Assembly: GCA_001513105.1 (NCBI GenBank)
Contig: LFSH01000090.1
Coordinates: 1-37,733 of the forward strand
DNA: 37,733 nucleotides
Direction of reading: 5' to 3'
DNA from: Clostridiales bacterium DTU070
GTDB lineage: Bacteria; Bacillota; Clostridia; DSM-8532
Positions 6,495-32,699 of this stretch are shown here, piece by piece. Within the stretch, counting starts at the first letter, position 1. Every line of letters starts with the position of its first letter. The translations under genes and the position numbers were made by a program. The notes below the pieces were generated by a model that ran no database searches, was not told the DNA's origin, and was given only the letters and a program-made list of their open reading frames with translations.

Positions 6495-6593
6495 TAACAT
6501 CGTAATTCAAGAAGAAATTCTTTTTATTCGGCAAACTCATGTGTCGAACCAGAGGTCGGATTGACCTTAAATTCGAAAAGGAGGATTATACTT

Positions 6594-12897: not shown

Positions 12898-13917
12898 CTA
12901 TGTAATTGAGATAACACTGTCTCTTTCCACAAGGGTCACTCCAAGGGTGGTTTTGCAAAAGATTCTTTTTTCCCTTTCCATCATGTAAATGAGGTTTTCC
13001 ACCGCGAGCTGGCCAAGTGCATTTTTGTCAACGTTTATTGTGGTAAGTTTCGGATCGGTAATGGTGCAGAACGGCATATCGTCAAAGCCTACAACCGAAA
13101 CCTCTTCGGGAATCCTGACATTACTCTCTTTCAATGCTTTCATCGCACCAAAGGCTATTATATCATTATCGGCGACAAAGGCCGTCGGAAGGTGGGTCTT
13201 CTTCGACAACGCCTTCATCATATCAGCATAGGCCCCGTCCATAGTCGGAAGCAAATGTATTGTATGCCTGCTGTTCGGCACAAGACCTGCTTCAGCCATT
13301 GCCTTTAAATACCCTTCATATCTTTCCCTGAAATTCTGGATGGGTATCGAGCTCTTTAAATAGCCTATTTCCCTGTGTCCCCTGTCCAAAAGGTATTTCG
13401 TGGCCCTATAAAGGCCGCTTATATTATCTATTACAACGTAATTCGCGTTTATATTCATAAAATAGCTGTCAAGCAGCAGAACAGGCACTTCCAGTTCAGA
13501 ATACTTCAAAAAGTCCTGCTCTTCCATCTCGGTACCCAAAAGGAGCATTCCGTCTATCGAGTTATCCTTAATCTCCTTCTGAAGCGCATCAACATCCGAA
13601 GAGTCGGACAGGTATTTTATGATCAGCTGGTATGAATAGTGCCTGGACTTTGACTCTATTCCTTCTATCAGGGCATGGAAAAAAGGTGTGTCGGTGACCA
13701 CCTTCGAGTGTTTCCTGTATATCGCAAGCTGAAGTTTTCCATTGTTCCTGTAATTTGCTTTTTTCAACGGTGACAGGGAATAGCCCAGCTCTTTTGCTAT
13801 TTTAAAGACTTTCTCCCTTGTTGCCTCGCTGATACCGGGCTTGTTGTTCAAAACCATTGAAACCGTTGCTGTTGATACATTTGCTTTCTGTGCAATTTCG
13901 TGGATTGTAACGCCCAA
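12898..13917 (-). CDS. LacI-family transcriptional regulator of the sugar locus
   Basis: This encodes about 340 residues. The first 25 residues hold the LacI helix-turn-helix (VTIHEIAQKANVSTATVSMV), followed by the hinge region. A periplasmic-binding-protein-like effector domain occupies about 60-335, with the usual signatures VVIDN, PTAFVADNDIIAFGAMKAL and SVVGFDDMPF. I chose TTG at 13917 because AAAGGGTG is 8 bases upstream and the HTH starts right after it; the longer frame from 13959 has no binding site and overlaps the promoter. It is transcribed alone, downstream of the GH genes and ABC importer it probably represses. Its effector is likely a rhamnose- or apiose-containing sugar, by context only. 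Confidence 0.93.
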   Translation of the reverse strand: MGVTIHEIAQKANVSTATVSMVLNNKPGISEATREKVFKIAKELGYSLSPLKKANYRNNGKLQLAIYRKHSKVVTDTPFFHALIEGIESKSRHYSYQLIIKYLSDSSDVDALQKEIKDNSIDGMLLLGTEMEEQDFLKYSELEVPVLLLDSYFMNINANYVVIDNISGLYRATKYLLDRGHREIGYLKSSIPIQNFRERYEGYLKAMAEAGLVPNSRHTIHLLPTMDGAYADMMKALSKKTHLPTAFVADNDIIAFGAMKALKESNVRIPEEVSVVGFDDMPFCTITDPKLTTINVDKNALGQLAVENLIYMMEREKRIFCKTTLGVTLVERDSVISIT

Positions 13918-13949
13918 AAATGTACACCCTTTCGTAATTACTAACAGTA

Positions 13950-13978
13950 AGTTTACCATATTAACTCAGTTTTTGCAA
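13950..13978 (-). promoter_or_regulatory. Promoter of the LacI-type gene
   Basis: On the minus strand TTGCAA (13973-13978), a 17-bp spacer and TAAACT (13950-13955) with a preceding TGG. A short inverted pair TTAC-N5-GTAA lies just downstream and may be an autoregulatory site. Confidence 0.6.
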
Positions 13979-14025
13979 TAAAGGCTACTTTAACTGGTAT
14001 AGTGTTTTTTATTGTTATCATGTTG

Positions 14026-14082
14026 CTGAACTGCCCCGCTCCTGCAAACACAGCGGCTGTTTCCGGACATTCGTACGATATC
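14026..14082. repeat. 57-bp direct repeat, copy A
   Basis: This copy matches 14249-14305 at 45 of 57 positions. Both begin with CTGAACTGCCC and end with ACGATATC. It lies in the gap between the MGH1-like gene and the LacI-type gene. Confidence 0.75.
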
Positions 14083-14248
14083 TTCTCCTTATAGCCCAAG
14101 TGTTTTAAGATATCGTGCAATGCGAGGAAGCTCTTAGCGGAGTGCAGCTTAGAGATGGGCGAAAAGAAGCAAGGACAAGCAAGCCACCGGAGCAAAAATG
14201 CACCTGGTGTTTTTTCATAAACACTTTTCCTGTTTCGGCTTGCCCGAG

Positions 14249-14305
14249 CTGAACTGCCCAGCTCTTGCAAACGAAGCGTTCGCTTCTGAGCATTCGCACG
14301 ATATC
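14249..14305. repeat. 57-bp direct repeat, copy B
   Basis: This copy starts 12 bases past the stop codon of the minus-strand glycosidase. On the minus strand it contains small hairpins (GAAGC-GAAC-GCTTC and, with flanking bases, GAGCTG/CAGCTC). The 166-bp middle segment between the copies contains GATATCGTGC at 14109-14118, an inverted match to the end of this copy, so the element may be composite. No gene could be supported in 13979-14317. Confidence 0.75.
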
Positions 14306-14317
14306 CAATCTCATCAG

Positions 14318-18515: not shown

Positions 18516-19361
18516 CTATCCCTTGATGGCTCCGCTTGTCATGCCTTCAATAACCATTTTGTTCATGAATATGTATATTATCAATGTAGGCAGAACACTT
18601 ATCGAAATGCAGGCAAAAATAGCACCCCAGTCCCTGTTACCGTACATATCCGAGAAATACAGAAGTCCTGTCTGCACGGTTTTCATCTCGGTACTTGATA
18701 TAAAGGTTGATGAAAATATCAAATCGTTCCAGCGGAAATAAAACTGGATAACGCCAACTGTAACTATTCCGGTTTTCATAAGCGGGAACATTATCCTGCC
18801 AAATACCTGGTAAATGTTTGCTCCGTCAATAATAGCCGCTTCTATCATATCATCAGGAAGCGAAACAAGGTAGCCCCTCAGAAGAAAAATAGTAAGAGGA
18901 AGGCCAAAGGCAATATAAGTCAGTATAAGACTTATTCTTGTGTTTAAAAGGTTGGTTCCTTTATACATCGAATACAGTGGTATCAGAACAACAGCCGTCG
19001 GAATCATTATACCGCTGAGAAAAATCTTCAGAACCTTATCCCTGAGTTTCCAGCGCATTTTCGTAAGCGCAAAGGCGCTTGTTGTTCCGAGCAGAATGAT
19101 AAAAAACAGGGACACTATCGTAACAATTGCGCTGTTTTTAAAGTAAATATTCATTTTCCCCTGGTACCACGCCTTAACGTAATTCTCAAGATGAATCTGT
19201 TTCGGTAACGCATATGACGGGGAAAGATTGAATTCCTGTGTATGCTTGAGGGAACTCATCAGTATCCAGAATATAGGGTATATCTCCACGAAAAGAAAAA
19301 TAACAATGAATATCTTTCCTATCACCGACAATACGTTTTTCATTCTTTTTTCCTTGTCCAT
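18516..19361 (-). CDS. CUT1-type sugar ABC transporter permease (MalG/ AraQ-like)
   Basis: This encodes 281 residues with six predicted membrane helices. The cytoplasmic EAA loop reads EAAIIDGANIYQVFGRIMFP, the contact site for the ATPase. The C-terminal ending with GMTSGAIKG is typical for this subfamily. It starts 12 bases after the first permease gene, with AAGGAG upstream of the ATG. It forms the import channel with the preceding permease for a sugar delivered by the lipoprotein. No ATPase gene lies in the window, as is common for CUT1 systems that share an MsmX-like ATPase encoded elsewhere. Confidence 0.95.
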   Translation of the reverse strand: MDKEKRMKNVLSVIGKIFIVIFLFVEIYPIFWILMSSLKHTQEFNLSPSYALPKQIHLENYVKAWYQGKMNIYFKNSAIVTIVSLFFIILLGTTSAFALTKMRWKLRDKVLKIFLSGIMIPTAVVLIPLYSMYKGTNLLNTRISLILTYIAFGLPLTIFLLRGYLVSLPDDMIEAAIIDGANIYQVFGRIMFPLMKTGIVTVGVIQFYFRWNDLIFSSTFISSTEMKTVQTGLLYFSDMYGNRDWGAIFACISISVLPTLIIYIFMNKMVIEGMTSGAIKG

Positions 19362-19373
19362 AACACCGACTCC

Positions 19374-20255
19374 TTAATATTTTTCCCTGCTCAGCTTATT
19401 GATTATAAACGTTACCAAAAGGCACTGAGCCAGGATCAGTATTGCAACCGCACTTGCATAACCGTACTGGTCAAACAGAAAAGCATTCTGATACATATTC
19501 ATCGTCATTGACGTAGTTGCAAAACCGGGGCCGCCTTTTGTAAGAGCCGTTGCCGATTCGTAGAGCTTGATCGTTCCTGTAAAGCTGAATACCAGGCAGG
19601 TTATCATAATCGTCCTTATCATTGGAAATACAATTTTCGTAAACAGCTTTACCCCGCTGGCTCCGTCAATACGTGCCGCTTCAAGCAGCTCATGGGGTAT
19701 GTCCACCAGCGCGCCGTAAATAATTACAGTATAAAAACCTATCGCTGTCCAGATATCCATCACTACAAGAGCTCCAAAAGACGTATTCGGCTGCCCCAAA
19801 AACGGCTGAATATACCTGTCAAGCCCGGCAAGATCCAGCAAAGCATTGATCAGTCCATAGTTCGGAACCATTTCATACATTTTCGCAAACATCTGTGCAA
19901 CTGCTACCGTCGGAAGTATTGTAGGTATAAATACAATGGTCCTGGACAGGGTTTTGAACTTTTTTATGCTGAAATACATCATCAATGATACAAGCAGACC
20001 AAACCCAACCTGACCGGGAGTTACAAAAAGTATATACTTCCAGTTCATTTTAATGGCTGCAACGGTCTGCTTGTTCGACCACATATTTATATAGTTTGAA
20101 AAGCCTACATATTCAAACTTAAACCCGGGCATACCCGAAAAAAGAGAGTAAATGAACGTCCATACTATCGGAACAAAAATAACGCCCACGAAAATTATCA
20201 GTGCCGGAAGTACCATTAAAGCAATTGCTTTCTTGTCACCCAATACCCGTTCCAA
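19374..20255 (-). CDS. CUT1-type sugar ABC transporter permease (MalF/ LplB-like)
   Basis: This encodes about 293 residues with six membrane helices and the EAA loop EAARIDGASGVKLFTKIVFP. I chose TTG at 20255, which follows GGGGGGAA by 7 bases and gives the normal short N-terminus ahead of helix 1. The longer frame from a GTG at 20303 would be translated through the hairpin at 20281-20309 and has no ribosome binding site. Together with the next gene it forms the membrane part of the importer. The hairpin upstream probably causes fewer permease than binding-protein transcripts. Confidence 0.93.
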   Translation of the reverse strand: MERVLGDKKAIALMVLPALIIFVGVIFVPIVWTFIYSLFSGMPGFKFEYVGFSNYINMWSNKQTVAAIKMNWKYILFVTPGQVGFGLLVSLMMYFSIKKFKTLSRTIVFIPTILPTVAVAQMFAKMYEMVPNYGLINALLDLAGLDRYIQPFLGQPNTSFGALVVMDIWTAIGFYTVIIYGALVDIPHELLEAARIDGASGVKLFTKIVFPMIRTIMITCLVFSFTGTIKLYESATALTKGGPGFATTSMTMNMYQNAFLFDQYGYASAVAILILAQCLLVTFIINKLSREKY

Positions 20256-20280
20256 AAAACTTCCCCCCTGTATAAATTTA

Positions 20281-20309
20281 AGAAAGGTGCCCGCTACGGA
20301 CACCTTTCT
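20281..20309 (-). terminator. Intercistronic hairpin between binding-protein and permease genes
   Basis: A perfect 9-bp stem AGAAAGGTG / CACCTTTCT with an 11-nt loop and only a weak T tract. It is placed 13 bases after the binding-protein stop codon, where such stems stabilise upstream mRNA and cause partial termination so that binding protein is made in excess. Confidence 0.7.
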
Positions 20310-20322
20310 CCGATAAACAGTT

Positions 20323-21666
20323 TTACCTGGATTTTGCCGCAGTCTCTTCGAGCAATCTCATATAATCTTCTGCAGTTATTTCTCCGGTGTAAAGCAGTGA
20401 GATACTTTGCTGGGCAATTGTTGACGTCTCGCTGTCCATCTTGGCTTCAAACCACAGGAATGCTCCCTGTGCCTTTGCAAGGTGTTCTGCTACCAGCTGG
20501 GTGTAGTACGTTGTATCCTCCGGCATTTTACTGATTGAGAAGCCCTTGAATGCTCCGGTTTCCTGCATTGCAAAGTCACCAAGTTTAGGGAATACGTATT
20601 TCATCCAGTCTGCTACCTTGTCGTCATATTTCTTCTTGGAGAACATTAGGATATTACCGCAGTTCATTGAATAGTCAAGTATAGTGCTGGAATCATTTAC
20701 CACGGGAACATTGAAGAAGCCGATTCCTTCAGGTCCTGCCGTATTGTCATCGGAGTTCAGGTTTGACACTTTCCATGAACCGTCGTAGTTCATTGCAGCC
20801 TGCCCGTTCATCAGCATTGAGGTTGCAGTACCGGGGTCAATGGTATTCATTCCTTCAGCAAAATAACCTTTTTTCGCCATATCCTGGAACATCTGAGCTG
20901 CAGCCACATATTCAGGATCTGTGAATTTTTTCTTTCCTGTAACTGCATCCTGTACCGCATTAGGTCCTACACTTCTTACAAGGTATGCATTCAGTACCCT
21001 GGTCATCGGCCAGTTGTCGCTTCCGCCCTGTACTATCGGTGTAATGCCTGCCGCCTTTAGCTTTTCACAAACTTCAAGAAACTCATCCCAGGTTTCAGGA
21101 GCCTTTTGTATTCCTGCCTTTTCGAACAGGGCCTTATTGTACCAGAATCCTTCCATGTTCAGGCCAAGAGGAACACAATACAGGCCTTTTCCGTCAACAA
21201 GTCTCTTCAACAGGCTGACAGCACCTTCATCAAGGCAGTCACGGATACCAAGCTCTGTGAAGGTTTCTTCAACATTAAGGATCAAACCTGCATCAATAAC
21301 CTGTTTCAGTCTTACTCCGGACTCGTATGTACAAACTTCGGGCAGATCGTCGCTTGACATCAGTATTTTTACCTTCTGGTCAAGCTGATCAATGGCAACA
21401 TACTCGTACTCCAATTTGAAACCATCAACTGTTTCGCCGTACTGCCTGGAGAGCTCGCTTACAATCCAGCCGTTTGAGTTTTTGTCGTCTTCAGGCCAAA
21501 TGGACAGAAACTTGATTGTCCGGGACTGGAACTTGTCCCCGGAAGAACCGGTATTGCTTCCGGTTGATGCGGATGGCGTCTTTGCTCCCTGGTTGCCTGC
21601 ACATCCTGCAAGCATTGAAACCAGCAGCACAAGTACCACACCAAGAATTAGCAGCTTCTTTTTCAT
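20323..21666 (-). CDS. Sugar-binding lipoprotein of a CUT1 ABC importer
   Basis: This encodes 447 residues. A signal peptide with lipobox LAGC (Cys22) is followed by a Ser/Thr/Gly-rich linker, so the protein is tethered to the outer membrane face of the cell. The rest is an extracellular solute-binding protein family 1 fold, with typical QAAMNYDGSWKVSNL and FWYNKALFEKAGI signatures. It likely captures oligosaccharides from pectin side chains, given the rhamnosidase and other enzymes in the same unit; the exact ligand is unknown. It is first in the unit, with a strong promoter about 210 bases upstream and AAAGGGG ahead of the ATG. Confidence 0.95.
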   Translation of the reverse strand: MKKKLLILGVVLVLLVSMLAGCAGNQGAKTPSASTGSNTGSSGDKFQSRTIKFLSIWPEDDKNSNGWIVSELSRQYGETVDGFKLEYEYVAIDQLDQKVKILMSSDDLPEVCTYESGVRLKQVIDAGLILNVEETFTELGIRDCLDEGAVSLLKRLVDGKGLYCVPLGLNMEGFWYNKALFEKAGIQKAPETWDEFLEVCEKLKAAGITPIVQGGSDNWPMTRVLNAYLVRSVGPNAVQDAVTGKKKFTDPEYVAAAQMFQDMAKKGYFAEGMNTIDPGTATSMLMNGQAAMNYDGSWKVSNLNSDDNTAGPEGIGFFNVPVVNDSSTILDYSMNCGNILMFSKKKYDDKVADWMKYVFPKLGDFAMQETGAFKGFSISKMPEDTTYYTQLVAEHLAKAQGAFLWFEAKMDSETSTIAQQSISLLYTGEITAEDYMRLLEETAAKSR

Positions 21667-21940: not shown

Positions 21941-22001
21941 TTTGGACATTTTGGACAAAATACAGGTTAAAATATAAATTCTTTAGTTAAACTTAAGTTT
22001 A
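21941..22001. promoter_or_regulatory. Candidate operators upstream of the importer promoter
   Basis: Two direct copies of TTTGGACA (21941-21948 and 21950-21957), 9 bp apart, and a perfect 14-bp palindrome TAAACTTAAGTTTA (21988-22001) lie 35-100 bp upstream of the -35 element. No gene is seen in 21667-22076. The binding proteins are unknown; the LacI-type regulator is one candidate. Confidence 0.4.
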
Positions 22002-22076
22002 GTATAATCTTCAGTAGGCTGTTGTAAGTTTTATATAATCGAAATATGATAATACTAAATCTGAATAAATATTTAA

Positions 22077-23480
22077 TCAGCGGTGCCTGTATACTTCCCA
22101 GCCCAAATACTTGGTTAACGCTTCTTCAATTATATCTGCCACATGTCCGCGAACCATTGAAACGTGGTGTTCATATCCTTCTTCGCAAAGCATATGCATA
22201 AGCTCCTGCAAATTCGGTACGCTGCATACAGCAGGTCCGCCGAAGGTTTTGACATCTGCGTCGATGAATTCTCCTTCTCCTACATAGGCACGGATTTTAC
22301 CGTTTACATCATCCGTAGATATCTTGCAGAATGTCATCGGTCCGGGCTGAACCTTGCCCACGCAAGCGCCGAAACAGTTATCATAGCCGAGCTGCGTTCC
22401 CAGTATATCCAGGACACCAACCGAAGGCCTGCATCCCATGAAGGAAGCGGGATAATTTGAGCAGTGGAAGTTTATGCATTTGTCTCTGTCGTTCCCGTAA
22501 TTATTGTTCCAGTCAAGATATCCGGCAGCTGCACCCGATGCCGATGAAAGTGCATACATTGTAAGTGCGCCCATAACATCCATTTCGCATGCATGAGGAA
22601 TTCCTTTTTCACCCATCATGCTCATGGCCAGGCATGCTGCGCATCCAAAGTGGTTCTGAAGCACGTTCCAGCACTGGACCGCTGCACAGTCCGCATCATA
22701 GTTCTTAACGGCTTCTTCAAGAGCTGTCTTGAAACGCGCCAGTTTTTCAACCTTTTCCATTGGAGCATCTTCTGAAACAATTGCATATTCCTTTATTTCT
22801 GAAATTGCATTTTCAAGCACTTCCCGATCATTAATCTCATTTGCCCGGGATATTATGTTTCCGATATCCTCAACCAGCACGGATATTCCGTTTTTTTGAA
22901 GAAGTTTTTCAGAAAAACGTACCGTCTGGAAAGGACCAGGTCTTGTACCGACCGCAAGGATTCGCGCCTTCCTGAGATTATTGACGGTTTTGCACAGTTT
23001 TTCAAAACGCTTTATATCTTCTGTGAATTCTTCGCTTTCTATTTTGCAGGTATGCAGTTTTGTCAGCGAAAACGGAATGCCGTACTGTCTTAAGTTGTTG
23101 CATACCGAGAGTTTTCCGCAAAAAGCATCACGCCTGTGTTCAACGTCAAGCAGTTCCAGGTCGTCATCACATGCCTGTATAAGAACGGGTACGTTCAGCC
23201 CGGATTCATGAATTGCCGTAACGACACCGATTTCATCTCCGAAATTCGGAAGTATTACAATTATGCCTTCTATCCTGTCGCGGTTCTCCCTGAACAGTTC
23301 TGCACATACCTTTGCCTGTTCGTAAGTCTGAACGGCACCATAAGGCATTGAGTCTTCATCCACGATAACATATTCATGCCCCATGCCGGTGAGTTTCTCT
23401 GTGATCTGTTTTCTTGCCTCCTGTGCAAGCCAGCCGGGGAAAAAACCTCTTGATGTAATTATCACACCAAATACAGCCAT
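22077..23480 (-). CDS. L-fucose/L-arabinose-isomerase-family protein, candidate aldose-ketose isomerase
   Basis: This encodes 467 residues of the FucI/AraA-like fold: two Rossmann-like N-terminal domains (about 1-165 and 165-285) and a C-terminal catalytic domain. Likely metal ligands lie in CEMDVMGALTMYAL (Glu and Asp near 298-300) and the histidine in NFHCSNYP near 340. The end reads HHVSMVRGHVADIIEEA, as in the family. It is much shorter than true FucI (about 590) and belongs to a general isomerase-like subgroup with open substrate. It starts 22 bases after the kinase gene with AAAGGTGG upstream. Context with a kinase and split transketolase suggests isomerisation of an aldose to a ketose; D-apiose to D-apulose is the inferred reaction. 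Confidence 0.85.
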   Translation of the reverse strand: MAVFGVIITSRGFFPGWLAQEARKQITEKLTGMGHEYVIVDEDSMPYGAVQTYEQAKVCAELFRENRDRIEGIIVILPNFGDEIGVVTAIHESGLNVPVLIQACDDDLELLDVEHRRDAFCGKLSVCNNLRQYGIPFSLTKLHTCKIESEEFTEDIKRFEKLCKTVNNLRKARILAVGTRPGPFQTVRFSEKLLQKNGISVLVEDIGNIISRANEINDREVLENAISEIKEYAIVSEDAPMEKVEKLARFKTALEEAVKNYDADCAAVQCWNVLQNHFGCAACLAMSMMGEKGIPHACEMDVMGALTMYALSSASGAAAGYLDWNNNYGNDRDKCINFHCSNYPASFMGCRPSVGVLDILGTQLGYDNCFGACVGKVQPGPMTFCKISTDDVNGKIRAYVGEGEFIDADVKTFGGPAVCSVPNLQELMHMLCEEGYEHHVSMVRGHVADIIEEALTKYLGWEVYRHR

Positions 23481-23502
23481 AAATACTTAACCACCTTTCA
23501 AG

Positions 23503-24996
23503 CTATTTATTCGAAAGAGCCCGCCTGACAGCATCATGCCAGCCCTTCTTGTACATAATTCTTTTTTCTTCATCCATCTGCGGTACAAACTCTGCGATAA
23601 CCGAACGTTTTTGCTCCAGTTCACTCAGCCCGCTCCAGAATCCTGTCGCAAGGCCTGCCATGTTTGCACTTCCCAGCGCTGACAGTTCTTCAACCCTGGG
23701 CACAACTACCTTCGTATTTGCAATGTCAGCCTGGAACTGCATAAGAAATGTATCACCGGTTGCACCGCCGTCAACCCTCAATTCCGACAGGACCACGTTT
23801 GAGTCTTTCTGCATCAGATCCAGGATATCGGTAATCTGGTATACGATTGATTCCTCCGCAGCTCGCACGATATTCTCAAGTTTCGCACCAAGTGTAAGAC
23901 CTGTAATAACTGCTTTTGCGGAATTATCCCAGTATGGGGCTCCAAGCCCGGTAAATGCAGGAACGAAATAAACTCCCCCGTTATCAGCCATTGACGAGGC
24001 AATTCTTCCCGATTCCTTCGGGTTTTTGATAAACCCTGCGTCAACAAGCCACGCTATGGTCTTTCCGCTGCAATTCACATTCCCTTCAAGGACATACACC
24101 TTTTCCCCTGATGTAACCCAGCCTACCGAGGTGACAATTCCGCTTTCCGAGTACACCGGTTTTTCACCTATATTCATCATTACCGATGATCCTGTTCCGT
24201 ATGTTGCTTTTGTCATTCCTATGCTGAAACAGTTCTGGCCGAAAAGAGCTGCGTGGGAATCGCCCATTACACCGCTTACCGGTATACCCTTCGGAATAAA
24301 GGCATCCCCTTCGGTATAGCCGAAAATACTGTCCGAAGGCATTATTTCCGGCATCATTTGAACCGGTATTTCAAAAATATCCATAAGGTTCCGATCCCAT
24401 TCAAGTTTCCCGAGACCCATCAAAAGAGTCCGGCTGGCATTGGAAAAGTCCGTGGCATGAACTTTGCCGCCGGTAAGATTCCATATAACCCAGGAATCCA
24501 TCGTACCGAACTTTAAACGGCCTGATTCCGCGTTTTCCTTAACTCCGGGTACATTATTCAGAATCCATTGAATCTTCGGCGCGGTAAAATACGGTGACAG
24601 ATGAAGCCCTGTCTTTTTTCGTATGTATTCTGCCGTTTCAGGGTCTTCTGCCAGCTTTGCGCACTGTTCCCTTGCCCTCGGGCATTGCCATACAACAGCA
24701 TTATAGACAGGTTTTCCCGTTTCACCGTCCCAGACCATTCCCGTTTCTCTCTGGTTCGTAACGGCAATGGCCGCTATTTCCTTCCAGAATACGTTTCCTT
24801 CCTGCATAACCCTTGAAATTGCCAGCCGTACATTCTGATAAATCTCTTCAGGATCATGTTCAACCCATTCGGGCTTCGGGTAATGCTGGACATGAGGAAC
24901 TGTAACCCTGTGATACACGGTGCAGTCCCTTGTGAACAATATCGCTTTTGTTCCTGATGTGGATTGGTCTATAGCAAGAATATACTTTTCCTCCAC
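23503..24996 (-). CDS. FGGY kinase, glycerol-kinase-like, candidate apulose kinase
   Basis: This encodes about 497 residues and phosphorylates a sugar or polyol with ATP. It is very close to GlpK: DQSTSGTKA at the phosphate site, NQRETG (Arg and Glu that bind glycerol), SPYFTAPKIQW (Tyr), and YGTGSSVMMN. But the GlpK site GDQQ reads GDSH here, so the conserved Gln next to the catalytic Asp is a Ser and the next a His. No glycerol-uptake gene is nearby; instead it lies between a transketolase and an isomerase gene. The GTG at 24996 is preferred, giving a VEEKYILAIDQ start; the GTG three codons earlier overlaps the transketolase stop and abuts its weak binding site. A true glycerol kinase remains possible. 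Confidence 0.85.
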   Translation of the reverse strand: MEEKYILAIDQSTSGTKAILFTRDCTVYHRVTVPHVQHYPKPEWVEHDPEEIYQNVRLAISRVMQEGNVFWKEIAAIAVTNQRETGMVWDGETGKPVYNAVVWQCPRAREQCAKLAEDPETAEYIRKKTGLHLSPYFTAPKIQWILNNVPGVKENAESGRLKFGTMDSWVIWNLTGGKVHATDFSNASRTLLMGLGKLEWDRNLMDIFEIPVQMMPEIMPSDSIFGYTEGDAFIPKGIPVSGVMGDSHAALFGQNCFSIGMTKATYGTGSSVMMNIGEKPVYSESGIVTSVGWVTSGEKVYVLEGNVNCSGKTIAWLVDAGFIKNPKESGRIASSMADNGGVYFVPAFTGLGAPYWDNSAKAVITGLTLGAKLENIVRAAEESIVYQITDILDLMQKDSNVVLSELRVDGGATGDTFLMQFQADIANTKVVVPRVEELSALGSANMAGLATGFWSGLSELEQKRSVIAEFVPQMDEEKRIMYKKGWHDAVRRALSNK

Positions 24997-24998
24997 TG

Positions 24999-25952
24999 CT
25001 AACACCCGCCGTTTCTTTTCATGTTTATAAGTTTCTCAGCTTCGACGCACAGGTTTTCGGGACTGATACCGTAATGGGCAAACACTTCTTTCGACTTCCC
25101 GGGTATTGCAGGTTCATCGGGAATGCCCATTATTTTCATTGGAACAGGATGATTCTGTACCACAACTTCAGCCACCGCTGCTCCAAAACCTCCTAAAACG
25201 CTGTGTTCTTCAATTGTCAGTATTGCGCCTGTTTCCTTTGCAGCCTTTATTATGCAATCCCTGTCAAGGGGTTTTATTGTGTGCATATTAATTACCCTGC
25301 AGTCAATCCCCCGGGCCGACATCAGTTCAGCCGCATCCAGTGCCGTTTTCACCGTTTCGCCGAATGTAATTATTGATACAGAATTACCATTCCTGAGGGT
25401 AATTGCACGGCCAAGCTGAAAATCATAATCATGGGATGAATAAACATCTTCAACAGGGTTTCTTCCAAGGCGCATATACACAGGCCCGTTGTATCCTGCG
25501 ATTGCCTCGGTCGCAAGCCTGGTTTCAAACCTGTCTGCAGGAACTACAATAAGAATACCGGGAACGGCTCTTAAAAAGGCTATATCCTGGAGTGAGTGAT
25601 GGGACATTCCAAGAGCACCATAGCTTATTCCGGCGCTTATTCCAAGAAGTTTTACATTCGTATTCGAGTACGAAACATCAACTTTTATCTGTTCTGCCGA
25701 ACGGGTGGTTAAGAAACAGGCCGGCGAAGCAACAAAGGGTTTCTTGCCGGATGCCGCAAGGCCTGCCGCAATCCCGACAATGTTCTGTTCAGCTATTCCT
25801 GTTTCAATAAACTGTTCGGGATACTCCTCGGCAAAGGGTTTCATCGAAGCAGAACCCCTTGAATCACTGCACAGCACCACTATATCCCGATCTTCTTTTG
25901 CAAGTTTCATCAGGGTTTCACAAACAACCTGCCTGTTATGTATCTTATTCAT
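24999..25952 (-). CDS. Transketolase-like C-terminal subunit (split transketolase)
   Basis: This encodes 317 residues: the pyrimidine-binding domain (about 1-180), with the catalytic Glu in TGIAEQNIVGIAAG, and the C-terminal transketolase domain (about 190-310) with EEHSVLGGFGAAVAEV. It works with the next subunit as a heterotetramer using thiamine diphosphate to transfer two-carbon units. Its ATG overlaps the stop of the N-subunit gene by one base (TAATG), with GGAGGTG upstream, so the two are translationally coupled. Split transketolases are common in Clostridia and include the apulose-4-phosphate transketolase AptA/AptB; here the flanking genes support that role, but a general pentose enzyme is not excluded. 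Confidence 0.92.
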   Translation of the reverse strand: MNKIHNRQVVCETLMKLAKEDRDIVVLCSDSRGSASMKPFAEEYPEQFIETGIAEQNIVGIAAGLAASGKKPFVASPACFLTTRSAEQIKVDVSYSNTNVKLLGISAGISYGALGMSHHSLQDIAFLRAVPGILIVVPADRFETRLATEAIAGYNGPVYMRLGRNPVEDVYSSHDYDFQLGRAITLRNGNSVSIITFGETVKTALDAAELMSARGIDCRVINMHTIKPLDRDCIIKAAKETGAILTIEEHSVLGGFGAAVAEVVVQNHPVPMKIMGIPDEPAIPGKSKEVFAHYGISPENLCVEAEKLINMKRNGGC

Positions 25953-26779
25953 TAAAGCACCTCCAGCAACCGGTCCAGTTCTTCACAGGCCTTTTTGTAT
26001 TCCTCGGGAGTCATTACCCCATGGTGCCATTTCGGTTCATTTTCCATAAACGAAATACCTTTTCCCTTCACCGTTTCAGCTATTACCAGCGAAGGCATGT
26101 TCCGCACCTTCCTGTCCTCCGAAAGGGCACTGCAGATCGAAGAAAAATCGTGGCCGTCTATTACCGAAACATTCCACCCGAAGCTCTTCCACTTTTCCCC
26201 GAGAGGTTCTATTGCCATTACCTCTTCTGTTTTTCCGCTTATTTGCAGGCCGTTCCTGTCTATAATCGCCACAAGGTTGTCCAGCCTGTAGTTGGACGCG
26301 GCCATTGCGGCTTCCCAGACAGAGCCTTCGGCCAGTTCCCCGTCTCCCATCAGGACGAATACCCGGTAATCCTTTTTATCCATTTTAGCTGCAAGAGCCA
26401 TTCCTACACCAATGGAAAGACCGTGTCCCAATGCTCCCGTGTTCATTTCCACTCCGGGTATCTGCCTGTTTGGATGGCCGATTAGCTTCGATCCAAACTG
26501 TGAATATGTCAGAAGCTCCTTCCTGTCAAAAAAACCCCTGTCGGCAAGCACGCAATAATAAGCGTCAATTGAATGCCCCTTGCTGAGTATGAACCTGTCA
26601 CGATCAGCCCAACCGGGATTTTCAGGATCAATTCTCATTACTTCGTAATAAAGAGCGACAAGGATATCGGTTTCGGAAAGTGAACCGCCTATATGCCCAG
26701 CACTTGACCGGTAGACTATGTCAACTATATCCCTTCGTATAAGTGCCGCTTTTTTCATCAGGTGTTTATATTTACTCAT
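25952..26779 (-). CDS. Transketolase-like N-terminal subunit (split transketolase)
   Basis: This encodes 275 residues covering the thiamine-diphosphate-binding domain. The TPP motif GDGELAEGSVWEAAMAASNY with the following N (IIDRNGLQ) is intact, as are GHIGGSLSETDIL and LSKGHSIDAYY. It has no pyrimidine or C-terminal domain, which are supplied by the coupled gene downstream. The 72-base gap to the preceding glycosidase gene has no terminator, so all five genes from 28366 down to 22077 appear to form one operon. The reaction is inferred to be two-carbon transfer from a branched or straight-chain ketose phosphate to glyceraldehyde 3-phosphate. Confidence 0.92.
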   Translation of the reverse strand: MSKYKHLMKKAALIRRDIVDIVYRSSAGHIGGSLSETDILVALYYEVMRIDPENPGWADRDRFILSKGHSIDAYYCVLADRGFFDRKELLTYSQFGSKLIGHPNRQIPGVEMNTGALGHGLSIGVGMALAAKMDKKDYRVFVLMGDGELAEGSVWEAAMAASNYRLDNLVAIIDRNGLQISGKTEEVMAIEPLGEKWKSFGWNVSVIDGHDFSSICSALSEDRKVRNMPSLVIAETVKGKGISFMENEPKWHHGVMTPEEYKKACEELDRLLEVL

Positions 26780-26851: not shown

Positions 26852-28366
26852 TCATTCAGCAAGTTTCATTGTGACTGCTGTCCAGCCCGTAATTTCAATC
26901 TTGTCGGTTCTTGGATTTATTCTGCATGATTTTATTACCTTGCAATTTTTTACATCATAAAATACCGCATCATACAGATTCCCATCCGGTGAACCTTCCC
27001 TAAAGCCAATCCAAAGGGTTTTCCCCTTCATTTCGTTTTTGAAGAACAACAGGTAAAACTCATTTCCCTTGGACAGTGAGAAATAATTGTGGCCGTCGGT
27101 GTTAATGTAGTCCCTTTTCATCTCCTGCCACGGGCATGTCATTACAATTTCCTTCAGAAACTTAAGGCACGGCGCACTGCCGCCAATCATATCCCCGCCA
27201 TAGGACCAGAATATATCGCGGGTATTGCCGTCAGTTATGAAACACTCTCCATGGGTTGCATAACCGCCCGCCATTACCGAGAGCCAGTGGCGCAGCAGCG
27301 TTAATTCGGCAGACGAATTTCCCCAGCAGTCCGGAAGATTTCCTTCGTACTGGTATTCATCATTGATAACCGGCTTTTTATATTCCCTTTTAAGTTCAAG
27401 CATAAGGGTATAAGTATCGGGATGCTGATATGATACATGGGTCATCCACGGACGATCGGGATATATCCATCCAAAGGAAATATTGTGGCATGACCTTGGG
27501 TGGCCGTACGGATCATTCGCTTTTATATATTCACCGATAACATCCCAGCTCCTGTGCGTTTTGCCTAATGTGAGCCTTCCCGGATTATCTTCGTCATAAC
27601 CTATATCATATTCGTTCGCAAGGCTCCACCAGACATTCCTGAATGCCGACAGCCTGTTTATAATATATCCCAGGTAAAGAAGCGCATCCTCTTCGTCCAT
27701 TCTGTCGATATCCCAGTGACCATAGTCATACGGATGGAACAGGATTACATCAGCCTCTATACCGAGCTCACCCAGTTCTTTTACCCGTTCTTCAAACAAA
27801 CGGAAATATTCCGGATTCGGACGTGTAAAATCAAATTTCTTCGGTTCTCCTTCAAACGGATAACAAGGAGGTTCATAGCTTACATCCACTGCATTGAACT
27901 TGCCTGTATAATGCTTCGGGAAGAAAAGCATTCTTATTTTGTTGAAACCATACTCCGAGAAACTGCGCAGCGTTCTTTCCCGTACTTCTGCAGGCCGGTA
28001 ATGCCATGCATACGCAGTCGTTCCCATGACAAAAAACGGCGTACCGTCAGCGTATGTAAAATGTTCACCCGTTGCTTTTACAGGACCGTGATTGTTTTCT
28101 GAAGGCGGAGTAACGGTAAATGTGCCTGAAATATTATTCATGTCCGGATCATTTGAAAAAACCGTATAACTGTATTCACCTTCAAATTCAGGCATAAAGC
28201 GTATTTTGTAAATTCCGTCCCCGTCATAAAAGCCATGCACGACTTTCTTACAGCCAGAATTATAAAAACATGCCTTAAGTTTGACATCGGTAAACGGGTT
28301 GTTATAATTTATTTTTGAACACAGCTGAAGCTCAAAGATTCCCCATTTTTCAACAGTTGAATTCAA
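26852..28366 (-). CDS. DUF5060-DUF4038-like TIM-barrel glycosidase
   Basis: This encodes 504 residues of a poorly studied glycosidase type. Residues about 3-88 form a DUF5060 Ig-like domain; about 95-400 form a DUF4038-type TIM barrel; the last 80 form a beta-sandwich (DUF5605-like). Candidate catalytic residues are Glu252 in SLANEYDIG (acid/base) and Glu337 in NDEYQYEG (nucleophile), an arrangement of clan A glycosidases with retaining mechanism. There is no signal peptide. TTG at 28366 is the start, 8 bases after GGGGGTGA. It is the first gene of the isomerase/kinase/transketolase operon, which suggests it releases the sugar that those enzymes consume. The DUF5060 domain closely resembles an insert in the neighbouring DUF1593 protein. 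Confidence 0.85.
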   Translation of the reverse strand: MNSTVEKWGIFELQLCSKINYNNPFTDVKLKACFYNSGCKKVVHGFYDGDGIYKIRFMPEFEGEYSYTVFSNDPDMNNISGTFTVTPPSENNHGPVKATGEHFTYADGTPFFVMGTTAYAWHYRPAEVRERTLRSFSEYGFNKIRMLFFPKHYTGKFNAVDVSYEPPCYPFEGEPKKFDFTRPNPEYFRLFEERVKELGELGIEADVILFHPYDYGHWDIDRMDEEDALLYLGYIINRLSAFRNVWWSLANEYDIGYDEDNPGRLTLGKTHRSWDVIGEYIKANDPYGHPRSCHNISFGWIYPDRPWMTHVSYQHPDTYTLMLELKREYKKPVINDEYQYEGNLPDCWGNSSAELTLLRHWLSVMAGGYATHGECFITDGNTRDIFWSYGGDMIGGSAPCLKFLKEIVMTCPWQEMKRDYINTDGHNYFSLSKGNEFYLLFFKNEMKGKTLWIGFREGSPDGNLYDAVFYDVKNCKVIKSCRINPRTDKIEITGWTAVTMKLAE

Positions 28367-28435
28367 ACCAGGCTCACCCCCGTTAAGTAAAAAGATGTGA
28401 TAAAAGCTGAAATTTTTAACTAAAAATATAATTTA

Positions 28436-28473: not shown

Positions 28474-28509
28474 TTAAATTATTTAAGTCTTGTTAAGTAA
28501 GTTTTAAGT
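28474..28509 (-). promoter_or_regulatory. Phased array of TTAAGT hexamers
   Basis: TTAAGT occurs at 28483-28488, 28493-28498 and 28504-28509, with a weaker TTAAAT at 28474-28479. The starts are 9-11 bp apart, one helical turn, on the upstream side of the -35 element. It is a likely binding site for an activator, possibly of the response-regulator or AraC type; no such gene is in the window. Confidence 0.5.
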
Positions 28510-28707
28510 ACGTGCGGATATGATACTGTACATTGCCATGAACAGGTTTTACATGTCCTTTTCTTTGATTTCAGGAAAAACTGCACCCTGGTTCAGTTTA
28601 TATTAACAGTCCTGTATTTATATTTTCTCAAACCCGTATACTGAAATTTTTAACCAAAATATAAATTTATGATTAAGCCGGTATAAAATACAGGGATAGG
28701 CTGTTAA

Positions 28708-28744
28708 ATAAAAAGCCCCGAAAACCTTCACTATGGCTCAGGGC
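28708..28744 (-). terminator. Terminator of the GH140-like/DUF1593 unit
   Basis: On the minus strand GCCCTGA / TCGGGGC (7 bp, one G-T) with a 16-nt loop is followed by TTTTTATTT, 80 bases after the DUF1593 gene. It separates this unit from the next operon. Confidence 0.75.
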
Positions 28745-28823
28745 AAAAACAACTCGCTATCCCGTTAATCCATGACACAAAATATTGCTTCCATATGATA
28801 ATCCTTATATAATGCGATTACTG

Positions 28824-30059
28824 CTATAAGCACCGGTCAAGCCTTGCCTGAAAATCACGCAGAAACTCTTCCCTCCATATATTCACGGTTTTGGCACCCT
28901 TATGTTCCTGTTCAGCATAATCTGCATCAATTATGTCGGACCACCAGTTCGGATAACGGTCCTCGTTCCCTCTGCGTCCTTCCCGGGTTTCTTCCGTGCA
29001 TGTAAACATACCTGATAATCCGTTCAGTTCAGGGATATCACTCGTTGTTGAATAATTCCACAAACCGGTTGCCTTCGGCATGAAACGAACCCTGTATTCA
29101 CCGTTCCCGCAGTAGTATCCATAGAACTCCTGTTCCTGGACAACAAGGGAAAAAGCAGGTTCATCAGGATCCATTTCAATATGCGGGCCGCTGAAAATCA
29201 GCTCCAGTACGCCATACACCTCTACCGTGTCTTTAGGACCTGTAATTCCCCGGTATATTGACTTCGGCCTGTTCCCAACCCGTACAAAAGAGCCGCCCCA
29301 TGACGGTTTTTCAGGACATTCAGGAGTTCCTTTAAGCAGGTATGCAACTGACGGTGTATCTCCCATTTTAATGACTCCGTCCAGGTGCTCGGCAAAAAAA
29401 TTCCCCAATGCGCCATGCCCTGAAACATGGTTGCTTACGAATGATTTGTTGCCCAAATCATGCAACTGGTTACCACCGACAAACCAACCCCTGTATGTTG
29501 AGTTGTTTTCAATTATCCACAGATCGGGAAAATTTTCATGGATGTATTCATAAGCATTCAGACCCCATTTTTTGTTCGGCCCTGCAATATAATAAACCCT
29601 TAATTTATCCTTGATATCCGGCGCATCATGCAATGCCTGGGCAAGATCTTCCAGCAGTCCCCATATAAGTATATACAAAGGGCGCGGATCATCTTTTCGC
29701 GCACACCGGATGATCCAGTCCGAACCTTCGGTTGCATTACTGTACCCTTTGAACGGTGCAAAATCTATGATTCCCTGTTTTGTAACCGATCTCAGGTAAC
29801 CCGGAGCCGGATAACGGGAAGAAAAGGCACGCAGTTTCGGGTAATCCGCTTCATACTGTTCGATTACTTTCAGGATATCTTTTACAGTGCCTTCTCCCCA
29901 TGGTGAAGAAATCAGTCCTTCGGTATCGAACAGGTCGGAATAAAGCAGATAGTGCACCATTGACTGAAAATCATCAGGATCGCTTCCGCCTATATCTGTT
30001 GAAACTATAACCCGGTAACGCTCTCCCGCCAAAGCCCCTTTTGTCATATGATCTGACAT
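28824..30059 (-). CDS. Sde182-type (DUF1593) nucleoside-hydrolase-like protein with inserted DUF5060 domain
   Basis: This encodes 411 residues. Residues about 14-275 form a nucleoside-hydrolase-like fold with the metal/ligand loop STDIGGSDPDD (21-30). A DUF5060-like Ig domain follows at about 278-356, and the nucleoside-hydrolase-like fold then resumes with the family's closing segment NWWSDIIDADYA...WREEFLRDFQARLDRC (371-410). So the Ig domain is placed inside the parent domain rather than at its end. The typical separate C-terminal domain of this family is missing. There is no signal peptide. Function is unknown; relatives were named cellulose-binding, but a glycosidase-like or ribosyl/apiosyl hydrolase role is conceivable. 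It lies 88 bases behind the apiosidase-like gene, with GGAGGATG before its ATG. Confidence 0.85.
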   Translation of the reverse strand: MSDHMTKGALAGERYRVIVSTDIGGSDPDDFQSMVHYLLYSDLFDTEGLISSPWGEGTVKDILKVIEQYEADYPKLRAFSSRYPAPGYLRSVTKQGIIDFAPFKGYSNATEGSDWIIRCARKDDPRPLYILIWGLLEDLAQALHDAPDIKDKLRVYYIAGPNKKWGLNAYEYIHENFPDLWIIENNSTYRGWFVGGNQLHDLGNKSFVSNHVSGHGALGNFFAEHLDGVIKMGDTPSVAYLLKGTPECPEKPSWGGSFVRVGNRPKSIYRGITGPKDTVEVYGVLELIFSGPHIEMDPDEPAFSLVVQEQEFYGYYCGNGEYRVRFMPKATGLWNYSTTSDIPELNGLSGMFTCTEETREGRRGNEDRYPNWWSDIIDADYAEQEHKGAKTVNIWREEFLRDFQARLDRCL

Positions 30060-30147
30060 TTCTTCATCCTCCGTTCAAATCAATTCTTATATATTTCCAT
30101 TACGCCTTCGGACAACCGGCGATGGTTTCACAGCAGTCAATTTCCTG

Positions 30148-31488
30148 TCAAAAATAGTCCTTCCCGCTGTCGGTAATGATTAATACATAATCGGTCCCGG
30201 AGTTGTTCTTTTCGGGGGGTGTAAATTCCATTATCCCTTTGTTTTCATATACTCCTGCCTTTTGTATTTCTCCGGTCTCAGGATCAAACCACGATGCGCA
30301 CACCCTGTCGCCTGTTATTTTCCCCATTTTCACACGGATGCTCAGTCGGGTACAGGTATAAACAAAAATATAGTCCGATCCTCTTGTTGCGAGCAGGCGG
30401 TCATATTTCTCTCCGCAATCTCCGTCAATCACCGACTGATCAGGCACCCTTTCAAAATACGGAACCGACAGCATCAGTTTCTTCAAATAACGCATCTGCC
30501 CGCCACCTGCGGCATCCAAAGCATCATACCAGTATTCGCGCACACCGTAGCTGCCTTTACTGCCGTCGGGTTTATGCATCTGCATTACAGCATTATGGCC
30601 ATATGTATGCCCGCAGGAGCCTGCGAAAACAGACCAGTACGCGTACCTGCGCACATCATTAGCATCCCAGTACGGCTGTGTCGGATCGTGTAATCCATGA
30701 GGAATGCTCTCATAGGAGGGCTCACCGTCCAGAACGGGTTTAACCGGAGTTTTCCGGTAATCATTAACAACATAGCGCCAGTTATCCTGCCCAATCCATA
30801 ATCTTTCATCATCTTCCTCTTCAGCTTTCACTTTCTGGTCATAGCGCCTGTGCCCGGACTGAAACATGTTGAAATCAAGCCAGGAAACTTCATGAAACCA
30901 TTCCGAAGACTGCGTTCTTCCGAACGGGTGAAATGTCATTAATGAATCCGGGTTATGGGTTTTAATTGTTTTCCCCAGTGTATCCCATACGTCGTAATGC
31001 CTGTCCCCCCTGGTGTCTCCGCCGAGAATCCAGATGATGTTCTTCCTGTTTTTGAAATGTTCTGCAAGCCATCTTCCGTATTGAACAACATTATCCATAT
31101 TCAGGATCCCATTCTCAGCTATGCTTCCCCAGACAGGAAGAAGACCCACGTACAGGCCTGCTGATTCGGCCATGTCCAAAACCCTGTCAATATGGTTCCA
31201 GTAACTGTCCGGCTTTTTCAAATCAGGACTTCCGGATACAAATGTTTTCGTAATGCTCCCGTCATATAATGCCGGTTCACCGTAAACATTCCTGTCGGTG
31301 GCCTGATGTATAATCACTGACTGAATAACATTAAAACCTTTGCCCTGCCTGTCCTTTATGTACTTTCCGGCTTCTTCAGTGCTCAGTTTCTGAAACAGAA
31401 GCCACGCAGTATCCCCAAGCCAGAAGAATGGTTGTCCGCTTTCATACATAAGGAATCTTTTGTTTTCCGACACTATTATTCTTTCCAT
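30148..31488 (-). CDS. GH140-like (DUF4038) glycosidase, candidate apiosidase
   Basis: This encodes about 446 residues. Residues about 5-345 form a DUF4038 TIM barrel starting with RFLMYESGQPFFWLGDTAWL, followed by a C-terminal beta-sandwich of the putative collagen-binding type (about 355-446). This is the architecture of GH140, whose founding member BT1012 cleaves D-apiose from rhamnogalacturonan II. Candidate catalytic residues are Asp158 in ILGGDTRGD (acid/base) and Glu256 in VLDGEPSYE (nucleophile), matching the Asp/Glu pair reported for that family. There is no signal peptide, unlike the Bacteroides enzyme, so it would act inside the cell. The ATG at 31488 follows GGGGTGACC; a start seven codons upstream is less likely. 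Family membership is a recall-based call. Confidence 0.85.
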   Translation of the reverse strand: MERIIVSENKRFLMYESGQPFFWLGDTAWLLFQKLSTEEAGKYIKDRQGKGFNVIQSVIIHQATDRNVYGEPALYDGSITKTFVSGSPDLKKPDSYWNHIDRVLDMAESAGLYVGLLPVWGSIAENGILNMDNVVQYGRWLAEHFKNRKNIIWILGGDTRGDRHYDVWDTLGKTIKTHNPDSLMTFHPFGRTQSSEWFHEVSWLDFNMFQSGHRRYDQKVKAEEEDDERLWIGQDNWRYVVNDYRKTPVKPVLDGEPSYESIPHGLHDPTQPYWDANDVRRYAYWSVFAGSCGHTYGHNAVMQMHKPDGSKGSYGVREYWYDALDAAGGGQMRYLKKLMLSVPYFERVPDQSVIDGDCGEKYDRLLATRGSDYIFVYTCTRLSIRVKMGKITGDRVCASWFDPETGEIQKAGVYENKGIMEFTPPEKNNSGTDYVLIITDSGKDYF

Positions 31489-31591
31489 ATGGTCACCCCG
31501 TATTTGCATTGTGTTTTCACCAGGAATTCAGCAAGAAGTGTTGAACAGATCAACGCCGATCCTCAGAAAATACTGAAAACTTGATAATCAT

Positions 31592-31620
31592 ATTGTAATT
31601 GATACTGCTGAATAAGTCAA
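31592..31620 (-). promoter_or_regulatory. Promoter of the GH140-like/DUF1593 unit
   Basis: On the minus strand TTGACT (31615-31620), a 17-bp spacer and TACAAT (31592-31597). The predicted start is near 31585, about 95 bases ahead of the gene. Confidence 0.7.
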
Positions 31621-31628
31621 TTATACCG

Positions 31629-31665
31629 TTAAGTGATTTACTTAAATTATTAAGCTGTCTTAACT
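31629..31665 (-). promoter_or_regulatory. Phased array of TTAAGT-type hexamers
   Basis: TTAAGT (31629-31634), its inverse ACTTAA (31640-31645), TTAAGC (31650-31655) and TTAACT (31660-31665) start 11, 10 and 10 bp apart. The array begins 8 bp upstream of the -35 element. It resembles the array at 28474-28509. Nothing further is seen in 31671-31845. Confidence 0.5.
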
Positions 31666-31846
31666 AAAACATTGCTTCGATAAGTCATATATGGGTTTAA
31701 AAAATGAATCTGCACATTATCCATCGGACTTTTGCATAATCCCTTTCGCAGCATAAGATTAAACGAATTGCCTGCCAGGGTCGATAAATGCTGGCAGAGT
31801 GTTTATGTTTTCAGTTCTTTCAGCGAAGAATTAATTCGCGCGTTAA

Positions 31847-31988: not shown

Positions 31989-32639
31989 TCAGAAAACTGC
32001 CTGTTCCATAACAAGGGAAACCCTTCCGTTCATGGCGTCTATAAGTCTTCTTTCAACCTCGTTCCAGTTTATCAGCTGCCACCATGAATTTACATAGTCC
32101 GCCCGCCTGTTCTGGTAGTCCAGGTAATATGCATGCTCCCATACATCGCATACAAGAACGGGAATCCCGCTCCATTCGGTAAGGTTCTGGTGCTTTTCGG
32201 CCTGTAATATTTCAAGCCTTCCCCATGAAGGCTGCCAGGTCAGTATACACCATCCCGACGCCTCAACATTTACGGCGGCAAGAATGAACTGGTTTTTCAT
32301 GGCTTCAAGACTGCCGAAGTATTGGTTTACATGGTAAACCGTCCTTGGCCCCGGCTGGCCTCCCCTGCCCAAAGGCGCCATAACAGTCCAGTATATACTG
32401 TGCAGTATGTGACCCGAACCGTTGAAGGCCAGTTCATTTTCCCAGTACTTGATATACTCAATATCGTTTGTCTTTCGTGCCTCTGCAAGATACAGTTCCG
32501 CCCTGTTCAATCCGTCCACATAGCTTTTATGGTGCCTGTCGTGATGTATCCTTAATGTTTCCTCACCAATTACCGGTTCAAGGGCATCATACGGGTACGG
32601 CAGAGGCGGCAGCCTGTGCATTCCCGGCAAAACATACAT
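31989..32639 (-). CDS. Iron/manganese superoxide dismutase
   Basis: This encodes 216 residues. It converts superoxide to O2 and H2O2 in the cytoplasm. The N-terminal helical hairpin has LPPLPYPYDALEP and the first ligand His in RIHHDRHHKSYV; the second His is in GHILHSIYW. The C-terminal domain supplies Asp and His in DVWEHAYYLDYQNRRADYV. All four metal ligands are present; whether Fe or Mn is used cannot be decided here. The ATG at 32639 follows AGGAAAGGA by 8 bases. The gene is an outsider among pectin enzymes, with its own terminator, a likely own promoter and a large leader hairpin. Confidence 0.93.
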   Translation of the reverse strand: MYVLPGMHRLPPLPYPYDALEPVIGEETLRIHHDRHHKSYVDGLNRAELYLAEARKTNDIEYIKYWENELAFNGSGHILHSIYWTVMAPLGRGGQPGPRTVYHVNQYFGSLEAMKNQFILAAVNVEASGWCILTWQPSWGRLEILQAEKHQNLTEWSGIPVLVCDVWEHAYYLDYQNRRADYVNSWWQLINWNEVERRLIDAMNGRVSLVMEQAVF

Positions 32640-32699
32640 ATGCAGCATCCTTTCCTGGATAAAATACAAAGTCTCATATTTTATCCTATGATGCTGCAT
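32640..32699 (-). promoter_or_regulatory. 60-nt leader hairpin abutting the SOD start codon
   Basis: Two perfect 10-bp stems stack: ATGCAGCATC (32640-32649) with GATGCTGCAT (32690-32699), and GGATAAAATA (32657-32666) with TATTTTATCC (32677-32686). They are joined by an asymmetric internal loop (7 and 3 nt) and capped by a 10-nt loop. In the mRNA the Shine-Dalgarno AGGAAAGGA lies in the internal loop and lower stem, and the start codon is the next base after the stem. It would hide the ribosome binding site when folded. Confidence 0.75.

Follow-up and report, generated by a model that had tools for sequence, protein, structure and literature searches.

A conserved, local TTAA array beside probable LacI-type control in a probable apiose cluster of a clostridial genome

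We analysed a 37,733-nucleotide stretch of Clostridiales bacterium DTU070 (contig LFSH01000090.1; hereafter the window), in which two units headed by glycosidase genes carry TTAA boxes, near helical spacing, just 5' of strong sigma-A-type promoters. Judged by sequence comparison, this TTAA array is a real, conserved and local promoter element, part of no genome-wide regulon, and it stands beside what appears to be conventional LacI-type control, both built of parts of known kinds. The window belongs to a genome of 2.89 Mb in 107 contigs (G000), which we compared with three genomes of the same genus (G024, G025 and G026) and with one of another genus in the same family (G017). An earlier note on this DNA had described the boxes as matching arrays of the hexamer TTAAGT and had proposed an activator that binds them.

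The TTAA array and its conservation

The best array lies at site 1, 5' of the DUF5060/transketolase unit, whose promoter was read by the promoter scan as TTGACG-17 bp-TATAAT (28464-28436, minus). Here four TTAA boxes precede the -35, their starts 43, 32, 22 and 13 bases away from it (28504..28507, 28493..28496, 28483..28486 and 28474..28477, all minus), in steps of 11, 10 and 9, with the nearest copy 9 bp from the -35 hexamer TTGACG (28464-28459, minus). The first three sit in TTAAGT (28504-28509, 28493-28498 and 28483-28488), and the fourth is a TTAA core. Three exact TTAAGT copies within 27 bp had been called improbable by chance and indeed are: when the intergenic stretch was shuffled with its dinucleotides kept, as many turned up only once in 20,000 trials.

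Site 2 precedes the apiosidase unit, whose lead gene we take to be GH140-type and whose promoter reads TTGACT-17 bp-TACAAT (31620-31592, minus; promoter scan). Its array (31629..31663, minus) is irregular, with TTAA at 31629, 31642, 31650 and 31660, the starts lying 43, 33, 25 and 12 bases before the -35 in steps of 10, 8 and 13. TTAAGT itself is found once on each strand, next to two degenerate copies, and its cluster measure of 1 is unexceptional in shuffles. The spacing of 9-11 bp given in the earlier note is seen at site 1, but at site 2 only if both hexamer orientations are mixed. Nor can the two arrays be called matching, because site 2 is irregular and partly composed of operator-like sequence.

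The boxes recur at orthologous loci. We compared the GH140-type and DUF5060 promoters of G000, G024, G025, G026 and G017; since G026 contributes an additional one, the set comprises nine promoters. Each of them holds 3 to 5 TTAA between -50 and -8, and in 9/9 a TTAA stands at -12 or -13. Our background, 35 intergenic sigma-70-like promoters drawn from 800 kb of G026 and G000 sequence, averages 0.54 TTAA with a maximum of 2, and 4 of the 35 have a TTAA at -11 to -14. Over the 50 bp upstream, the nine promoters total 39 TTAA against 18.3 (standard deviation 3.1) in shuffles; for periods of 10.25-10.5 bp their phase concentration is 0.63, a value that 0.25% of shuffles attain. When the DUF5060 promoters of G000 and G017 are aligned, the four cores fall in register, but not the spacers (11 of 26 positions match) or the upstream flank (9 of 32); the core match itself (16/16) is by construction, the cores having been chosen as TTAA. 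The boxes of the relatives read TTAACA, TTAAAT, TTAAGC and the like, the TTAA core being kept near helical spacing. The near-helical placement and its conservation at orthologous loci, in nine promoters of five genomes, are therefore upheld, and the conserved unit is not TTAAGT, since the relatives conserve the core and differ in the hexamer.

The two lead genes have five distant homologs, among them a paralog in G025, and no such promoter was found upstream of these. In a class-level search of 391 genomes, 3 had the DUF5060 gene at E <= 1e-140. As an observation apart, a three-box TTAA relic lies at -31, -22 and -13 from a decayed -35, 88 bp 5' of the G024 transketolase promoter (G024:C174 near 20395, minus).

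Restriction to this locus

The array is confined to the cluster. TTAAGT occurs 24 times in the window against 22.6 expected and, not being enriched, was rejected as a genome-wide motif; paired as TTAAGT-N3-6-TTAAGT it has 3 matches in the 2.89 Mb genome, two overlapping at site 1 and a third within a coding frame. The anchored pattern TTAA-N5-7-TTAA-N4-7-TTAA-N9-TTGAC, which was drawn up after seeing the locus, gave 4 matches in four genomes, at the locus in G000, G024 and G025 and once in a G025 coding frame, and its reversed control gave 0. Unanchored three-box arrays stay at control level in all five genomes (matches/control: G000 6/9, G024 25/25, G025 34/34, G026 13/17, G017 14/13) and were rejected as a genome-wide signal; the four other three-box places in G000 fall twice in reading frames and twice between genes. 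A looser pattern of two boxes plus the -35 matched 38 times in seven genomes, against 19 for the reversed control, with 9 of the 38 at this cluster. Outside the cluster, matches equalled the control within the genus (15 each), and the three genomes of the second genus showed an excess, with 14 matches to 4 in the control. Two outcomes had been named beforehand as telling against the array, namely arrays common at unrelated genes and a lack of conservation at orthologous loci; neither was observed.

A candidate operator and a LacI-type regulator

Past the -10 there is a second shared element. Aligning the nine promoters on their -35 brought out a common TTTAGTAAA-like word, which in the relatives lies 12 bp past the -10; this word was found before we met its precedent in PMC2329647. 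At the site 1 promoter it is TTTAGTTAA (28416..28424, minus), about 12 bp past the -10, and we consider TTTAGTTAA a likely candidate operator of the cluster's LacI-type protein. The window contains three copies, one each in the promoter regions of the importer, the DUF5060 gene and the GH140-type gene; of 100 shuffles of the whole window, 3 yield three copies at any position. Across the 2.89 Mb genome there are 19 copies, and 59 of the reversed control. A de novo palindrome search past the -10 returned the 11-base aTTTAgTAAAc, at a modest but suggestive score of 70.9 (range of six shuffles 60.3-68.4). Longer palindromes with AcATCT at their centre likewise scored above their nulls (width 14: 81.3 against 65.5-72.2) and were set aside, their positions being unrelated. 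If one mismatch to TTTA(G/C)TAAA is allowed, 8 of 12 cluster promoters carry the word at +28 to +62 from the -35, compared with 3 of 35 background promoters and a shuffle mean of 1.4 in 12 (0 of 1,000 shuffles reach 8), and five of these words lie exactly at +40/+41. At the G024 transketolase promoter an exact operator-like site stands at +41 and there is no box array, which argues that array and operator are separate elements.

All three promoter regions of the window contain operator-like sites, placed outside the array at site 1 and over the outermost box at site 2, where TTTAGTTAA (31660..31668, minus) stands at -48. There, too, TTTACTTAA (31637..31645, plus), which differs from the operator core at a single position, overlies the second box. 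Ahead of the importer, TTTAGTTAA (21982-21990) and TTTAGTATA (21998-22006) lie over both ends of a palindrome at 21988-22001 (together 21982..22006, plus), and this copy of TTTAGTTAA sits well upstream of the nearest -35-like word. The palindrome, TAAACTTAAGTTTA, had been reported earlier for its TTAAGT; it is present, but the G025 importer promoter does not conserve it.

The LacI-type gene (12898..13959, minus) encodes a protein with PF00356 (the helix-turn-helix) and PF13377 (the sensor domain) above cut-off and aligns nearly full length with PurR, which places it in the LacI family. In the alignment, lysine and asparagine replace hinge Ala-51 and Leu-54, and leucine is absent there in 6/6 orthologs and relatives. 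The numbering of hinge residues follows GalR. Both residues have roles in operator binding (PMC2978694). The canonical pairing of hinge Ala/Leu with a CG-centred even palindrome is not found here, as the candidate operator lacks the CG. LacI-family proteins without hinge Ala/Leu, termed EbgR-like (LacR, GalR), use TTTAGTAAA/TTTACTAAA with no central CG, according to the available part of PMC2329647, and the protein of the window shares the absence of hinge Ala/Leu by which that text defines them. The conserved EbgR-like insertion before helix 3 was not seen, there being no gap relative to PurR in that region. Since the insertion is absent and the operator centre varies, we do not file the protein as an EbgR-like member.

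Among 32 genomes of the family, an ortholog with at least 73% identity occurs in exactly the five that bear boxes, and an order-level search added a single genome. A relative of 43% identity in a further genome (G022) adjoins DUF5060 and transketolase genes there. In all genomes the cluster has the LacI-type gene as its sole linked regulator, a linkage that is no proof of binding. Just 5' of it, at 13960-14317, we noticed by eye what seem to be two diverged copies of a sequence beginning GATATCGT.CGAATG.

The gene cluster

The two units belong to a plant-cell-wall cluster of minus-strand genes (12898-36813), which by library profile matches also holds a bacterial rhamnosidase. Profile matches identify, behind site 2, the apiosidase-type glycosidase (PF13204; 30148..31509, minus) followed by a Sde182/nucleoside-hydrolase-like protein with DUF5060 (28824..30059, minus) and, as the first gene behind site 1, a DUF5060 and apiosidase-like protein (26852..28366, minus). 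The rest of the site 1 unit (22077..26779, minus; Pfam/NCBIfam) comprises a split transketolase, an FGGY kinase and an isomerase-like protein, and a sugar ABC importer (18516..21666, minus; profile match) lies beyond. Isomerase, kinase and split transketolase together make up the apiose degradation set: the D-apiose pathway genes are apsI (isomerase), aplK (kinase) and aptA/aptB (transketolase halves), as given in the available text of PMC13001218. The top-scoring model for the FGGY kinase is glycerol kinase. The isomerase-like protein (22077-23480) matched a model for sulfoquinovose isomerase with 106 bits, far short of the cut-off of 700, and had no match in a sequence search of solved structures. 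From this gene set, the cluster probably digests the plant sugar apiose of rhamnogalacturonan II.

Two neighbours deserve mention. A gene for an iron/manganese superoxide dismutase (31989-32699) lies within the cell-wall cluster and keeps this position in G024, G025 and G026. Further away, a gene at 6561-8156, which we take to be hybrid-cluster-protein-like, falls in this genome into two frames, of 233 and 286 amino acids, and is a single frame of 520-539 amino acids in G025, G026 and G024; the split may be a frameshift or an assembly error.

What may read the boxes

Our confidence is evenly divided on a model of two layers, whose protein-DNA contacts, inducer and activation by the boxes we infer. 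A LacI-type protein would repress the units near +1 through TTTAGTTAA/TTTAGTAAA sites, most of them some 12 bp beyond the -10, and would release the operator when a cluster sugar is present. Separately, the upstream boxes would be contacted either by a multi-subunit activator encoded elsewhere or by the alpha C-terminal domains of RNA polymerase, giving high transcription once repression is lifted.

Several points weigh against this model. No binder of the TTAA boxes was identified, and core promoters this strong need no activator. Being orthologs and paralogs, the nine promoters do not give independent counts, and the figures overstate independence; spacing between neighbouring boxes ranges from 4 to 18 bp. 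Inheritance of the cluster accounts for the co-occurrence of the LacI-type gene, which is no proof of binding. Past the -10 of the apiosidase promoter in G000 there is no operator-like site. Moreover, the operator centre is 2 bp in G000 and, in the apiosidase promoters of the relatives G024, G025 and G026, 1 bp, a weakness of the assignment because the half-site distance of LacI-type operators is usually constant within an orthologous group (available part of PMC4052901).

For the boxes themselves, an unlinked activator is the likeliest reader, though at somewhat less than even confidence. That they are half-sites of a cluster-specific AraC-type or response-regulator activator, as the earlier note proposed, is conceivable but rather doubtful. 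Four boxes about 10-11 bp apart 5' of the -35 are what such a protein's footprint would lead one to expect, their phase and position are conserved, and AraC-type genes are many (19 matches in G000 at E <= 1e-10 to the AraC-type protein of G025). However, we saw no AraC or response-regulator gene in the cluster of the window. In G025, an intact membrane-bound AraC-type gene lies with an importer between the two units (G025:C132:32823-35129; L102 2823-5129). This gene has no ortholog in G000, where the best relative is 24% identical, and in G026 (one contig) it has lost the C-terminal part with the helix-turn-helix. As the boxes persist in G000, G025 and G026, this gene is not needed for them. 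The anchored array is found at no other promoter of the genus, which makes a regulator with further targets unlikely. We also think it unlikely that the boxes are the target of a new activator dedicated to apiose/rhamnogalacturonan II, alongside a hinge-leucine-less LacI-type repressor whose operator centre may be 1 or 2 bp.

Alternatively, the boxes could be an A+T-rich UP-type element for the polymerase alpha C-terminal domains, with no dedicated protein. We regard this as somewhat unlikely. The core promoters are near consensus, the upstream DNA is 76-94% A+T, and near-helical boxes adjoin the -35. Nevertheless, the 9 of 35 background promoters that equal the cluster promoters in A+T hold at most 2 TTAA, and the bend predicted by a wedge model is not above background (mean 24 against 34 degrees); DNA curvature was rejected on this ground. 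TTAA contains a TpA step, and UP elements are made of A-tracts and T-tracts.

It is distinctly unlikely that the boxes are auxiliary contacts of the LacI-type protein. This would suit the sole linked regulator, whose missing hinge leucine means that the usual CG-centred operator is not expected, and the overlap of TTTAGTTAA and TTTACTTAA with boxes of site 2. Yet the array side shows no significant excess of operator-like words (4/12 against 1.9 in shuffles, P 0.10), site 1 has none within its array, and the G024 transketolase promoter has the site alone. The earlier exclusion of a LacI dimer is right in that the array contains no recognisable LacI operator; it goes too far for the locus, where the LacI-type gene is linked throughout and operator-like sites lie in three promoter regions. 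Functionless chance clustering in A+T-rich spacer DNA is very improbable: site 2 alone is ordinary for TTAAGT and unanchored arrays match controls genome-wide, but position and phase are conserved across the nine promoters.

Comparison with known systems

Regulation of apiose use seems little described. Our literature search gave pathway genes (including those of PMC13001218) and, in the available text, no regulator or operator for apiose use. The box array and the predicted operator offer two short cis elements with a candidate repressor, and they suggest that hinge-leucine-less LacI-type proteins may read TTTA-TAAA sites beyond lactobacilli and streptococci.

In Bacillus subtilis, PhoP boxes are TTAACA-like hexamers about 11 bp apart 5' of the promoter. 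The arrays resemble them in hexamer and spacing (that of G017 reads TTAACA-N5-TTAACA-N4-TTAATA) but are confined to one sugar cluster, have a strong -35 and show no phosphate link. With clostridial UP elements and phased A-tracts they share A+T-richness, helical phasing and a place 5' of the -35, but consist of TTAA instead of A-tracts and have no predicted bend. XydR of Clostridium cellulolyticum, an AraC-family activator of plant cell wall genes in the Clostridia, offers repeats near the -35 (available part of PMC3572039); unlike here, it is encoded beside its targets, and no common consensus exists. The candidate operators come closest to the odd-centred EbgR-like ones of LacR and GalR, at least as the accessible text of PMC2329647 presents them, with a TTTAGTAAA core, no central CG and a regulator without hinge Ala/Leu, the differences being the missing subfamily insertion and the core TTTAGTTAA with its 2-bp centre. 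Finally, the cluster resembles the D-apiose clusters, as far as PMC13001218 was available, in bringing together isomerase, kinase and both transketolase halves; in the window, where apiose is the presumed substrate, these are additionally joined to glycosidases and to a LacI-type gene.

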